The notes under the pieces: model-generated
Databases searched by the model: none
Told to the model about the DNA's origin: nothing
The model's input: only the letters and a program-made list of their open reading frames with translations
Shown here: positions 25,380 to 43,132 of the stretch, piece by piece
How positions within the stretch are numbered: the first letter of the stretch is position 1
How the letters are laid out: every line of letters starts with the position of its first letter
Translations under genes and position numbers: made by a program
Source: Phycicoccus sp. Root101
Lineage (GTDB): Bacteria > Actinomycetota > Actinomycetes > Actinomycetales > Dermatophilaceae
Assembly: GCF_001426245.1 (NCBI RefSeq)
Contig: NZ_LMCM01000005.1
Location: 310,001-374,000, forward strand
Reading direction: 5' to 3'
Length of the DNA stretch: 64,000 bases

Positions 25380-25429
25380 CGAGTTTGAAGCGGCACCGAC
25401 GTCCTGACGTCGGTGCCGCTTCAAACTCG
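25380..25429. repeat. 50-bp palindrome, solitary copy (likely also a terminator)
   Basis: Perfect 23-bp inverted repeat with a CCTG loop (25403-25406). The outer arms are CGAGTTTGAAGCG and its complement. It lies 26 bp after the SpoIID stop and 34 bp before the convergent scoB stop, so it can act as a terminator for both. The same outer arms and total length of exactly 50 bp recur at 36779-36828 and 37884-37933. Confidence 0.9.
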
Positions 25430-33174: not shown

Positions 33175-33214
33175 ACGAAGGGGCCCGGTGGTCGATGCCA
33201 CCGGGCCCCTTCGT
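33175..33214. terminator. Bidirectional intrinsic terminator
   Basis: Perfect 17-bp stem, ACGAAGGGGCCCGGTGG (33175-33191) with its complement at 33198-33214, loop TCGATG. It lies between the convergent stops at 33144 and 33227. No T-run, as is usual in high-GC actinobacteria. Confidence 0.85.
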
Positions 33215-35858: not shown

Positions 35859-36647
35859 CTAGCGCTTCGCGAAGGCGTCGCTCGCGTGGCGCCGCACCGC
35901 GGCATACGTGCCCCTGTCGGCGGCCACGATGATCCCTGGCGTGAGCACCGTCGGTGCGTATGGCGTCCCGTCGGCGTGCCCGACGTAGCCGCCGGCCTCG
36001 GTGACCATCAGCCCGCCGGGGGCGTGGTCCCAGGGGCTGTTGCGGGCGTACAGGATGTAGTCGGCGGCACCTTCCATGAGGCGCGGGTAGTCGACCCCGC
36101 AGCAGACCCACGAACCGACCAGCGCGGGCAGGGCGCCGAGCGAGTGCCCGCGCAGCGGCCAGATCGAGGTGACGCCGCGCGGGGGCACGCCGTCGGCGAC
36201 GGGTTCGCGGGTGACGCGCTCGCCGTTGCGGAAGACGCCGGCACCCTTCTCGGCGACCCAGGCGACCTCGTGCTCGGGCTGCCAGATCCAGGCACGGACG
36301 GTCTCGCCGTGCCGGACCTCGCTCACCATGACGGCGTGGTCGGGGGAGCCGTGGACGAAGTTCTTGGTGCCGTCGACCGGGTCCACCGTGAAGGCGTGCT
36401 CGGCCTGCACGTAGCGGTCGAGGGTGCTCGGGTCGGTCGAGGTGCGTTCCTCGCCGAGGATGAACGCCCCCGGGAAGGCCGCCTCGAGCTCGCGCGTGAG
36501 GATCGCCTCGGACTCCTGGTCGGCGATCGTGACGAGGTCGCCGGGGTTCTTCTCCATGACCTCGCCCTCGGCGAGCGACCTGAACCGCGGCGTGATGACC
36601 TCCGCCGCGACGGACTTCATGAGGTCCAGCACCTGTCCTGTGTCCAC
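35859..36647 (-). CDS. Inositol monophosphatase family protein
   Basis: 262 residues if started at GTG 36647; the frame is open to GTG 36665. Metal-site motifs are complete: GDLVTIADQESE, LGEERTSTD, FTVDPVDGTKNFVHGSPD (DPxDGT) and NSPWDHAPGGLMVTEAGG (WDxAPG). Such enzymes remove phosphate from inositol 1-phosphate or histidinol phosphate; the actinobacterial HisN subtype is the closest alternative. I prefer 36647 because GGTGGGGTC immediately upstream can serve as ribosome binding site. Confidence 0.9.
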   Translation of the reverse strand: MDTGQVLDLMKSVAAEVITPRFRSLAEGEVMEKNPGDLVTIADQESEAILTRELEAAFPGAFILGEERTSTDPSTLDRYVQAEHAFTVDPVDGTKNFVHGSPDHAVMVSEVRHGETVRAWIWQPEHEVAWVAEKGAGVFRNGERVTREPVADGVPPRGVTSIWPLRGHSLGALPALVGSWVCCGVDYPRLMEGAADYILYARNSPWDHAPGGLMVTEAGGYVGHADGTPYAPTVLTPGIIVAADRGTYAAVRRHASDAFAKR

Positions 36648-36720
36648 GACCCCACCGTTCCACACGTCAGCCCCCAGCGGTGCACCCGGTCCAGCCCCGC
36701 CCCCGCCCGCCTACCTGTCC

Positions 36721-36768
36721 CGCCCCCACCAGCCCCGCCCCCACCAGCCCCGCCCCCACCAGCCCCGC
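36721..36768. repeat. 15-bp tandem repeat
   Basis: Three exact copies of CGCCCCCACCAGCCC followed by a partial fourth, in the gap between the phosphatase and the palindrome at 36778. One strand is almost pure pyrimidine. It belongs to no gene. Confidence 0.85.
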
Positions 36769-36777
36769 CCCCCATCC

Positions 36778-36829
36778 GCGAGTTTGAAGCGTCACCGACG
36801 CCCTGGCGTCACCCGCGCTTCAAACTCGC
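36778..36829. repeat. 50-bp palindrome family, left copy beside the nuclease-like gene
   Basis: Arms GCGAGTTTGAAGCG (36778-36791) and complement (36816-36829). The 24-bp centre holds an inner GACGC-CCTG-GCGTC hairpin, the same loop and nearly the same inner stem as the copy at 25380. Core length from CGAG to CTCG is 50 bp. It lies 86 bp before the GTG of the winged-helix/nuclease gene. Confidence 0.9.
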
Positions 36830-36914
36830 CGGGAGGGGGGCGATCACGCCGCCACTGAACCGGGCCTGTGGACAAACCTCCGGAGCCGGGGACGAGCCCG
36901 CGCATCATGGGCCG

Positions 36915-37892
36915 GTGGCGGTCGACTGGGCAGGGCTGCGGCGGTGCGCGAACCGCCAGCACGACCTCCTCACCCTCGCCCAGTGCCGGGCCGCCGGGCT
37001 CGGTGACCGCGCGGTGCAGTGGCGGGTGCGCTCGGGACGCTGGGTGCGCCTGCACCCCCGCGTCTACCTCACCAGGCCGGGCCGTTCGGAGTGGATCGTG
37101 ACCGCTTCGGCCCGCCTGCTGTCCCTGCAGCGGGACCCGGTCGTCGGTGACGTCGCCTTCTGCGGTCGATCGGCGGCCCACCTCTGGGGCGTGCGACCCC
37201 AGCCGCCACCGCGACTCGACCTCGTGGTGCCGTACACCCGATGTCCCCGACCGATCGCAGACGTGGCCGTGCGCCGGTCGATGAGATGGGCTGACCTCAT
37301 CGACGACCGGGCCTGGCCGTGGCGGACGACCCTCCCGGCGACCGTTCTCGACGTCGCTGCCGACGGTTCGCCGACCGACTGCCTGGCGACCGTGGCACGC
37401 GCCGTCCAGCAGCAGCGAGTCTCTGTCGCCGAGCTCCGCCAGGAGCTGGCTCGACGACCCGGGCACAGGCACGGTGCCGTTCTGAGGCCCGCCCTGGCGG
37501 ATGTCGCGGACGGCGCGCAGAGCGGGGCCGAGGTGCTCTACCTGCGGGATGTCGAGCGGGCCCACGGACTGCCTCGGTCGGTGTCGCAGTCACCGTCGGA
37601 CGCTGGGCGGCGACGGTGGCACGACCACGAGTACACGGCATACCGGCTCATCGTCGAGGTGGACGGCCGCCTCGGGCACGAGCAGTGGGCCGACCGGGTG
37701 CGGGACGGGAGGCGCGACCGGCTCCTACTCGGGTCGGACCGGGCCACCACGCGGGTGTTCTGGGCGGACGTGGCCGTGACACCGTGCCGGACCGCGCACG
37801 ACATCGCGGCGATCCTCACCGCACGAGGGTGGGCGGGTCGGGTCCGGCCATGCCGCCGCCCCGGGTGCGGGCTCGGACACGGCCGAGTTTGA
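36915..37892 (+). CDS. AbiEi-like winged-helix protein with DUF559/Vsr-like nuclease fold domain
   Basis: 325 residues from GTG 36915. Residues 1-45 (HDLLTLAQCRAAGLGDRAVQ, then WRVRSGRWVRLHPRVYLT) match the winged-helix start of AbiEi-type antitoxins. The middle (50-200) is alpha/beta. The C-terminal 110 residues resemble DUF559/Vsr proteins of the PD-(D/E)xK fold: E of GAEVLYLRDVE, HDHEY, then LIVEVDGRLGH (ExD-type site) and RDRLLLGSDRATTRVFWADV. No adjacent AbiEii toxin is present. Its TGA stop (37890-37892) lies inside the arm of the right-hand palindrome. A DNA-targeting role is inference; a stand-alone antitoxin-like regulator is the alternative. Confidence 0.75.
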   Translation: MAVDWAGLRRCANRQHDLLTLAQCRAAGLGDRAVQWRVRSGRWVRLHPRVYLTRPGRSEWIVTASARLLSLQRDPVVGDVAFCGRSAAHLWGVRPQPPPRLDLVVPYTRCPRPIADVAVRRSMRWADLIDDRAWPWRTTLPATVLDVAADGSPTDCLATVARAVQQQRVSVAELRQELARRPGHRHGAVLRPALADVADGAQSGAEVLYLRDVERAHGLPRSVSQSPSDAGRRRWHDHEYTAYRLIVEVDGRLGHEQWADRVRDGRRDRLLLGSDRATTRVFWADVAVTPCRTAHDIAAILTARGWAGRVRPCRRPGCGLGHGRV

Positions 37893-37933
37893 AGCGGCGG
37901 CCCCGCCATGACGGCGGTGACGCTTCAAACTCG
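37884..37933. repeat. 50-bp palindrome family, right copy overlapping a gene end
   Basis: Arms CGAGTTTGAAGCG (37884-37896) and complement (37921-37933), a 24-bp centre with an inner CCGCC/GGCGG stem. Same size and arms as the other two copies, different centre. The left arm supplies the stop codon of the nuclease-like gene, and the hairpin could terminate its transcript. Confidence 0.9.
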
Positions 37934-38051
37934 CGCAGGGGAGTGGGACGGAGCGGGACGGAGCCGGGCGAGGGGTATGGCGCGGCGCGAGGTGGCGTCG
38001 CGGCGCACCTGGGCGTGCGGGCGGCGACCGGCGGGTAGGCTCGGCGCCGAG

Positions 38052-39191
38052 ATGAGCGAGCACACCAGCACCGGTCCAGCAGTCCCCGTCGCAGCCCCCG
38101 AGACCGAGATGATCCCGACCTCCCAGCCGGCCGCGACGCCGGCCGCGCAGGCACCGGCCCAGCCGGCCGCGGTCCCGGCCCAGCCGGCGCCCCACGTGGC
38201 GGGACCCGTGACCACGACGGACGGGCAGCTGTCGGTGCACCCGGCCGACGCGGCCTACCTGCCGAGCACGGCTGGCACGCCGCAGAGCGCCCGCGACGCG
38301 GACAAGCCGTACGTCACGATCGTGCTGCCGTGCTTCAACGAGGCCGCGCACGTGCTGCAGGAGATCGACCGGATCACGGTGGCGATGAACTCCAGCGAGT
38401 TCACCTACGAGCTGCTCTGCATCGACGACGCCTCCACCGACGACACCCTCGAGGTGCTGCACCAGGCGGCGCGCGACTACGCCAACATCCGGGTCATGCC
38501 GTTCCGCCGCAACGGTGGCAGCGGCACGGCCCGCCGGATCGGCACGCAGCAGGCCCACGGCGAGATCGTCGTGTGGACCGATGCCGACATGACCTACGAG
38601 AACGAGCGCATCCCCGAGCTGGTCCGGATCCTGCGCGACGACCCGTCCTACGACCAGGTCGTCGGCGCCCGCACCACCGAGGAGGGCACCCACAAGTGGG
38701 CGCGCGTCCCGGCGAAGTGGCTGATCCGCAAGATCGCCGAGAAGCTCTCCAACCAGACCATCCCCGACCTCAACTCGGGTCTGCGGGCCTTCCGCCGCGA
38801 GGTCTCCCTGCCGTACCTGCGCCTGCTGCCGCCCGGCTTCAGCTGCGTCACGACGATCACGCTGGCGTTCCTGTCCAACCAGCACGACATCAAGTACGTC
38901 CCGACGAGCTACGCCAAGCGCGCCGGCGTCAGCAAGTTCCACTTCGTCCGCGACGCCTACCGCTACATCCTCCAGGTGCTGCGCATGGTCATGTACTTCG
39001 ACCCGCTCAAGGTGCTCATGCCCCCGGCCCTGTGGCTGGTCGTCATCGGCGTCGTCAAGGCCCTGGTCGACATGGTCCGCCACCCGTTCTACTTCCCGGC
39101 CAGCACGGTGCTGCTCATCGTCAGCGGGATCATGATCGGTTCGCTGGCGCTGCTGTCCGACCTCGTCGTGCGCTCGCGCACGGGCGTGTGA
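38052..39191 (+). CDS. GT2 polyprenyl-phosphate glycosyltransferase with two C-terminal helices
   Basis: 379 residues. Residues 1-75 are an Ala/Pro/Gln-rich linker. The GT-A domain starts at VTIVLPCFNEAAHVLQEIDR; IDDASTDDTLEVL, NGGSGTARRIGTQQA and VVWTDADMTYENERIP (DAD) follow, then PDLNSGLRAFRR and KRAGVSKFHFVRDAYRY, as in DPM1/GtrB enzymes. Two helices end the protein (ALWLVVIGVVKALVDMV, VLLIVSGIMIGSLALLSDLV). Role: charging undecaprenyl phosphate with a sugar at the inner membrane face. First gene of the second polysaccharide set. ATG 38052; the frame open to 37908 overlaps the palindrome and is not used. Confidence 0.88.
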   Translation: MSEHTSTGPAVPVAAPETEMIPTSQPAATPAAQAPAQPAAVPAQPAPHVAGPVTTTDGQLSVHPADAAYLPSTAGTPQSARDADKPYVTIVLPCFNEAAHVLQEIDRITVAMNSSEFTYELLCIDDASTDDTLEVLHQAARDYANIRVMPFRRNGGSGTARRIGTQQAHGEIVVWTDADMTYENERIPELVRILRDDPSYDQVVGARTTEEGTHKWARVPAKWLIRKIAEKLSNQTIPDLNSGLRAFRREVSLPYLRLLPPGFSCVTTITLAFLSNQHDIKYVPTSYAKRAGVSKFHFVRDAYRYILQVLRMVMYFDPLKVLMPPALWLVVIGVVKALVDMVRHPFYFPASTVLLIVSGIMIGSLALLSDLVVRSRTGV

Positions 39192-43091: not shown

Positions 43092-43132
43092 GACAGGTGT
43101 GCCGCCCGCGGGGAGCGGGCGGCACACCTGTC
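43092..43132. terminator. Bidirectional intrinsic terminator
   Basis: Perfect 18-bp stem: GACAGGTGTGCCGCCCGC (43092-43109) and complement (43115-43132), loop GGGGA. It lies between the convergent stops at 43070 and 43155. Confidence 0.88.

Follow-up and report, generated by a model that had tools for sequence, protein, structure and literature searches.

A gene in Phycicoccus sp. Root101 encodes a protein that joins an AbiEi-like half to a Vsr-type nuclease, of a little-studied family of probable nucleases in soil actinobacteria, and it is framed by two copies of a 50-bp palindrome. Most of the homologues tested across the Actinomycetes are framed in the same way, with other arms. We think it somewhat probable that the locus is a selfish palindrome-nuclease unit, working as the REP/RAYT pair (REPtron) does, though its enzyme is unrelated and its reader is of the AbiEi type.

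The gene lies in the window, as we call the whole 64,000-nucleotide stretch analysed here (Table 1). A reading made earlier from the sequence alone had placed it between two 50-bp palindromes with identical 13-bp arms, and both the coordinates and the arms were confirmed. These arms, CGAGTTTGAAGCG, are identical in all three 50-bp palindromes of the window and give six arm matches there, a number that 0 of 100 shuffles reached. The overlap of gene and palindrome is also real, as the TGA stop (37890-37892) falls within the left arm of the downstream copy. The upstream copy is positioned between divergent genes. Downstream, the true start of the glycosyltransferase is probably the in-frame ATG at 38052. 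The window holds further repeats of other kinds: GC-rich tandem units (CCCCGCCCCCACCAG) at 36690-36770, in the interval from the start of the IMPase gene to the upstream palindrome, and two perfect, short-looped inverted repeats of 18 bp at 43092-43132 and 17 bp at 33175-33214, which are probably ordinary terminators. No Rfam family was found in the window at the gathering threshold.

Table 1. Positions of the gene, its palindromes and neighbouring features in the window, and of the related genes in the same genome
Feature	Position	Strand	Details
Third palindrome, solitary, 50 bp	25380-25429		Between convergent genes
Inositol monophosphatase (IMPase) family host gene, flanking	35859-36665	-	
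Upstream palindrome, 50 bp	36779-36828		13-bp arms, copy-specific 24-bp inner part, centre CT; from sequence and pattern search
Conserved CCTGTGGACAA element	36865-36875	+	Between upstream palindrome and start codon
AbiEi-like plus Vsr-type nuclease gene	36915-37892	+	325 aa; residues 1-198 AbiEi-like, 202-306 nuclease
Downstream palindrome, 50 bp	37884-37933		Centre AT; left arm contains the gene's TGA; from sequence and pattern search
Family 2 glycosyltransferase host gene, flanking	37908-39191	+	ORF as listed
AbiEi-nuclease genes of the same genome	Contig 5 at 346936 and 217764; contig 8 at 212270 and 226365		346936 is the window gene, 217764 is L273

A search of the whole genome (4.38 Mb, 12 contigs) for the 13-bp arms at 24-bp spacing returned five exact copies, each 50 bp long, and a sixth, imperfect copy lies at 865301-865358 of contig 1. 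The third window copy does sit 11 kb from the gene as the sequence-only reading had it, but it does not stand alone: two more exact copies are found elsewhere in the genome, and all three solitary copies are intergenic. The 24-bp inner parts differ among the five copies, as had been noted for the window, though each still pairs, with 40 of 55 positions paired where about 16 would be expected at an assumed 72% G+C. Altogether, 114 distinct palindromes were found, and most measure 40 to 60 bp. Of these 114, 87 have an even length, with an exact centre of AG/CT in 31 and of AT in 21.

The best-matching named relatives are Phycicoccus and Pedococcus (family Intrasporangiaceae). Protein homologues are present in 82 of 149 family genomes. 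They are flanked by palindromes similar in size and position that have other arms. At a palindrome score of at least 11, 38 of 70 family loci had a palindrome upstream, 40 downstream, 30 at both ends and 48 at either end, compared with 6 of 528 control windows. A named set that spans Phycicoccus to Nocardioides, Microlunatus, Planosporangium, Nakamurella, Streptosporangiaceae and others gave the same picture, with such palindromes at either end of 56 of 80 loci, some of which have short flanks, against 21 of 630 controls. The two ends of one locus belong together: among the 41 loci with both ends the median similarity was 30 versus 8 between loci, and in 27 of them the end similarity exceeded the 99th percentile of cross pairs. 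Aligning the flanks directly, without any palindrome finder, placed 53 of 69 family loci over the framing threshold (47 of 3000 cross pairs) and 48 of 72 named loci (23 of 3000), leaving 16 and 24 loci, respectively, below it. This alignment took 69 of the 70 and 72 of the 80 loci; the others were dropped because the flank was too short or the frame was a long read-through.

A PF13338 search of 11 genus genomes, our own included, gave 31 hits, 30 of them with loci; the other (G150 C1:2338655) came without a locus and is outside the set tested for framing. Together with the distant paralogue L273 these make a genus set of 31 loci. The nuclease motif is present in 27, and matching repeats frame 27 of 27, whereas none of the four loci without an intact nuclease is framed and 35 of 702 cross pairs match. 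The negative set is small, consisting of L298 and L305, which read as other HTH proteins, the short AbiEi-like protein L314, and L315, which has kept its upstream palindrome and looks like a frame-broken relative. Every framed gene of this set has a nuclease half, which suggests that the protein's function includes cutting. Homologues regularly found without a palindrome would speak against a joint system, and they do not occur among the 27 nuclease-bearing genes examined in the genus or make up most of the family and named loci, although a minority of the distant ones is unframed.

Terminal inverted repeats, as at the ends of a DNA transposon, were considered and are not favoured, the framing copies being mixed in orientation. 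For the 27 framed genes of the genus set, 14 pairs match better inverted and 12 direct, with 1 tie, and the other two sets gave 19/34/1 and 19/28/2 (inverted/direct/tie), a weak test in that palindromic ends match in either direction.

The arms are private to each gene. In our genome the four AbiEi-nuclease genes each have different arms. A search with the window protein at E <= 1 recovered only itself in this genome, and the farther paralogues came from searches with the CCTGTGGAYRA motif and PF13338; L273 (contig 5:217764) has its own, different framing palindromes. Since none of 26 same-genome gene pairs in the genus set share arms, the palindrome belongs to the gene and not to the genome. 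The earlier family set held 11 same-genome pairs with a median of 8, one pair reaching 14, the threshold for arm sharing; among family-set pairs at least 60% identical, arms were shared in 89% of 36 cases. Of 41 other palindrome pairs spaced 0.4-2 kb, one matches (L175, which is the framing family itself), against 22 of 23 framing pairs. A window-wide control with palindromes scoring at least 8 had 33 of 2145 pairs at 14 or above, mostly weak likeness of GC-rich hairpins; the pair 25380/37884 scored 34 and the next pair 18, the upstream copy having been missed by this control's finder because of its inner mismatches. The L175 locus (Pseudofrankia sp. BMG5.36) carries at 2040-2690 two more copies of its framing palindrome (CATGATCTGGTGGG...), 577 bp apart and less than 1 kb upstream of the gene.

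Palindromes of these families also occur away from their genes. We searched for 24 private palindromes in 24 genomes that have a close homologue and in 8 that lack one, using arms known from other genomes only, so that unknown arms escape; 13 candidate regions were scored per genome, which makes the place counts lower bounds. Among the matches listed, all at E below about 3e-9, at least 18 of the 24 gene-bearing genomes have places beyond the framing ones, and at least 19 counting our own. The range is 1 to 13 places, the most among these matches being at least 13 in G059 and at least 10 in G143, and G113, G039, G140, G107 and G071 have no further place among them. The 8 genomes without a close homologue yielded nothing comparable, their best match among those listed having E 0.004; two of them (G032 and G131) have AbiEi-nuclease genes that are more distant and go with other palindromes. 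Exact window arms occur in 1 of the 149 family genomes, our own, and palindromes abounding where the protein is lacking, which would separate the two, were not encountered in these searches. A second subfamily behaves likewise: the palindrome GCAACCTCTGCTAGCAGAGGTTGC frames our gene at contig 8:226365 and has 7, 6, 3 and 9 places in our genome and in the three whose orthologues are at least 69% identical to that protein. G137 has 1 imperfect place, and the other six genus genomes have none. A Terrabacter palindrome has 1 to 3 places, 4 of the 10 searched genomes having any, too few to make that genus a model for clean empty sites. Heuristic gene calls put 16 of 23 dispersed copies between convergent genes and 5 between genes in tandem; of the other two, one lies between divergent genes and one within a called frame.

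Comparison with relatives shows some sites occupied in one species and empty in others. At the 25380 site, none of the 10 other genus genomes has a palindrome with the window arms or with private arms of its own, and several have other hairpins. Around the hemB-side copy the interval between aligned ends is 154 bp, and the same interval is 12 bp in G115. At the contig 1 site the sister genome G072 has a palindrome with different arms, and four other genomes tested have none such. The 3' flank of hemB holds a solitary palindrome of another family in G143, and in G137 and G149 a framed gene of that family adjoins hemB with its 3' end facing hemB. The palindromes beside hemB in these three genomes (L222, L226 and L235) form a family of about 70 bp (CAAAACGG...) that goes with another nuclease subfamily. 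Such turnover of sites suggests that the palindromes spread, and the intergenic flanks are too diverged for a target-site duplication or a precise junction to show. A homologue of the window gene adjoins the IMPase gene in 9 of 11 genus genomes; because this is one locus in one orientation, the window gene is not visibly moving now. At the IMPase locus of G131 and G032 neither the gene nor such a palindrome was found.

The AlphaFold model of the 325-residue protein has a pLDDT of 93.6. Among the structure matches listed, residues 1-198 align with AbiEi (6y8q; Z 13.0, rmsd 3.5, 182 residues). Residues 202-306 align with the Vsr-type protein 3hrl (Z 11.4, rmsd 2.5, 91 residues), with the catalytic domain of I-Bth0305I (3r3p; Z 11.3, rmsd 2.6, 96 residues) and with Vsr bound to DNA (1cw0; Z 9.3, rmsd 2.5, 99 residues). 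In an alignment of 76 sequences, which left out 5 of the 80 named-set proteins, E206, R211, H217, D237, E248, D250, G251, D264, R280, C291 and C318 are invariant, and H255 and C313 are kept in at least 90%. By conservation, the candidate catalytic residues are the invariant E206, D237, E248, D250 and D264 and the nearly invariant H255. PF13338 matches the window protein over its cut-off. DUF559 (Pfam PF04480) does not match it, reaches E <= 0.01 in 2 of 28 relatives and is over its cut-off in L273; NCBIfam and PHROGs gave no match. The AbiEi-like half predicted by the sequence-only reading is thus supported by PF13338 and by fold, whereas its DUF559 assignment gets no Pfam call on the window protein itself, and the nuclease half is evident from the modelled fold and the conserved residues.

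Between the upstream palindrome and the start codon lies the conserved CCTGTGGACAA element, which we take to resemble an actinobacterial DnaA box. Of 70 family homologues, 45 have TGTGGA[CT][AG] in the 220 nt before the gene and 10 have its reverse form there; none of 69 has it downstream. In the named set (n = 78) the orientation is mixed, with TGTGGA upstream in 33 and TCCACA in 37. Our genome has 22 occurrences of CCTGTGGAYRA, one being upstream of the distant paralogue L273 and two on contig 7, at 356130 and 356212 (L280 and L281), upstream of a frame read as dnaN. It is tempting to speculate that expression of the nuclease might be tied to replication. A further copy (L278, contig 6:404015) precedes a frame resembling a DUF222/HNH protein, so that the element may be a mark of more than one nuclease family.

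We propose a model where two AbiEi-type halves would each read one half-site of a palindrome of roughly 50 bp, thereby bringing the Vsr-type nuclease halves close to its centre, which is commonly CT/AG or AT. If a cut or nick at this centre were repaired from another copy, the copies would stay alike and solitary palindromes could spread into intergenic DNA, while the whole palindrome-gene-palindrome unit may have moved now and then. As in abiE, the gene is probably also controlled through its upstream copy, acting as operator. The simplest account of the data is that the AbiEi half recognises the palindrome, a well-supported inference; mobilisation by cleavage and the route of copying are putative. 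Several observations count against a selfish unit: copy numbers are low where REPs reach hundreds, the framing copies have no fixed mutual orientation, a minority of loci is unframed, and the preponderance of dispersed copies between convergent genes would also fit a terminator role. That the Actinomycetes harbour a large undescribed selfish class, in which an AbiEi-type reader with a Vsr-type nuclease recognises, cuts and propagates a private palindrome, is a broader proposal on which we are evenly divided.

The serious rival is an autoregulator with passively spread operators, which we regard as unlikely. The AbiEi half would bind the upstream palindrome and so repress its own gene, in the way AbiEi does at abiE. 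Copies downstream and elsewhere would be further binding sites, forming a regulon or acting as decoys, and the nuclease would act elsewhere, for example in defence or repair. The AbiEi fold and the geometry of the abiE operator are shared, and in family and named loci the upstream palindrome mostly precedes the matched coding region by about 60 to 230 bp, an operator position. This reading leaves unexplained why a matching copy lies at the stop codon, why copies are dispersed, with so few between divergent and so many between convergent genes, and why orthologous sites are occupied in some genomes and empty in others.

It is improbable, in our view, that the gene is instead of a homing type and inserts into a solitary palindrome, duplicating it on both sides, so that solitary copies would be vacant or vacated targets, like solo LTRs, and the palindromes would spread otherwise. 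The nuclease half is near EDxHD homing endonuclease and Vsr in fold, and the solo palindrome in the hemB 3' flank of G143, with its framed counterparts in G137 and G149, fits this reading. However, no close-strain pair with one site empty and filled was seen among the genomes compared, and G131 and G032, which lack the window gene, do not show the expected palindrome at its locus.

A role in defence or self-marking, where the nuclease attacks foreign DNA and host palindromes regulate, sequester or license it, would accord with the PADLOC AbiEi models that match the N-terminal half. We hold this to be quite improbable, as no AbiEii nucleotidyltransferase toxin is found beside the gene, whose neighbours encode the IMPase and the glycosyltransferase, and the plasmid collection has no match to the protein. 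The phage collection gave one, an unannotated record from human faecal samples (MT835975.1, 8530-9444; 49.5% identity over 94%).

Ordinary bidirectional terminators or generic gene-end hairpins, which would simply mark gene ends, are very improbable: the convergent setting of 16 of the 23 dispersed copies lends this partial support and long hairpins of other kinds are often found where genes end in these genomes, but arms are private to each gene subfamily and common to both its ends, differ between same-genome paralogues, hardly ever match in non-framing pairs, and upstream of the window gene stand between divergent genes.

How short palindromes spread in bacteria is an open question. The dedicated enzymes known to us to spread them are HuH transposases, and a non-homologous nuclease family would give an independent test case. 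If the model of a selfish unit is true, it describes a second, independently evolved solution of the REP/RAYT kind, with fast-changing palindrome specificities, several per genome. The many natural pairs of a reader and its roughly 50-bp target could be used to learn how specificity changes. The model would also explain a set of actinobacterial orphans called 'AbiEi antitoxin' or DUF559, and it predicts cleavage sites that can be tested.

Each half of the protein has a known counterpart. With AbiE it has in common the N-terminal fold and an operator that is an imperfect 49-bp palindrome with conserved outer arms, TGTTGCTTTTA-N27-TAAAAGCAACA (PMC3985639), formed by two inverted repeats (PMC3985639, PMC7319586); AbiEi monomers bind its two 23-bp repeats, 3 bp apart (PMC7319586). 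The geometry is 11+27+11 bp there and 13+24+13 bp in the window palindromes. Unlike in AbiE, no AbiEii toxin is adjacent, the nuclease is fused, and palindromes are also 3' of the gene and dispersed. The C-terminal fold is that of Vsr and of the EDxHD homing endonuclease I-Bth0305I, which is described as dimerising on a target of nearly 60 bp (PMC3943268). Here the DNA-reading domain is another one, palindromes frame the gene, and the window gene lies neither within an intron nor next to a gene for mismatch repair or a methylase. The part of PMC3710099 open to us names the Vsr-type MTES_1575 family and makes no mention of palindromes. Among the matches listed from the open-access literature, a scope outside which most subscription papers and bioRxiv fall, palindromes around AbiEi/DUF559 nucleases are undescribed.

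The nearest system in arrangement is the REPtron. A REPtron gene lies beside its cognate palindromes, is usually present in a single copy, has palindromes dispersed in intergenic DNA and co-evolves with them, each gene type having its own palindrome type (PMC3116915, PMC8266576). Dispersed intergenic palindromes cognate to a nearby gene are what we find here, and the relation to REP/RAYT with a different enzyme class, suggested in the sequence-only reading, holds to that extent. TnpA-REP (RAYT) is a HuH single-strand enzyme with a catalytic tyrosine, whereas this protein pairs an AbiEi-like half with a Vsr-type nuclease and has no H-hydrophobic-H (HuH) motif. REPs are 20-50 nt long, number hundreds to thousands of copies and are preceded by a tetranucleotide, mostly GTAG; we found 1 to 13 places, and no GTAG is beside the three window palindromes. 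Because the HuH enzyme and GTAG, both defining features, are absent, we do not file the system under REPtrons. We set it apart as new since its enzyme, its reader and its palindromes differ from those of every system found, and its likeness to the REPtron is one of logic.
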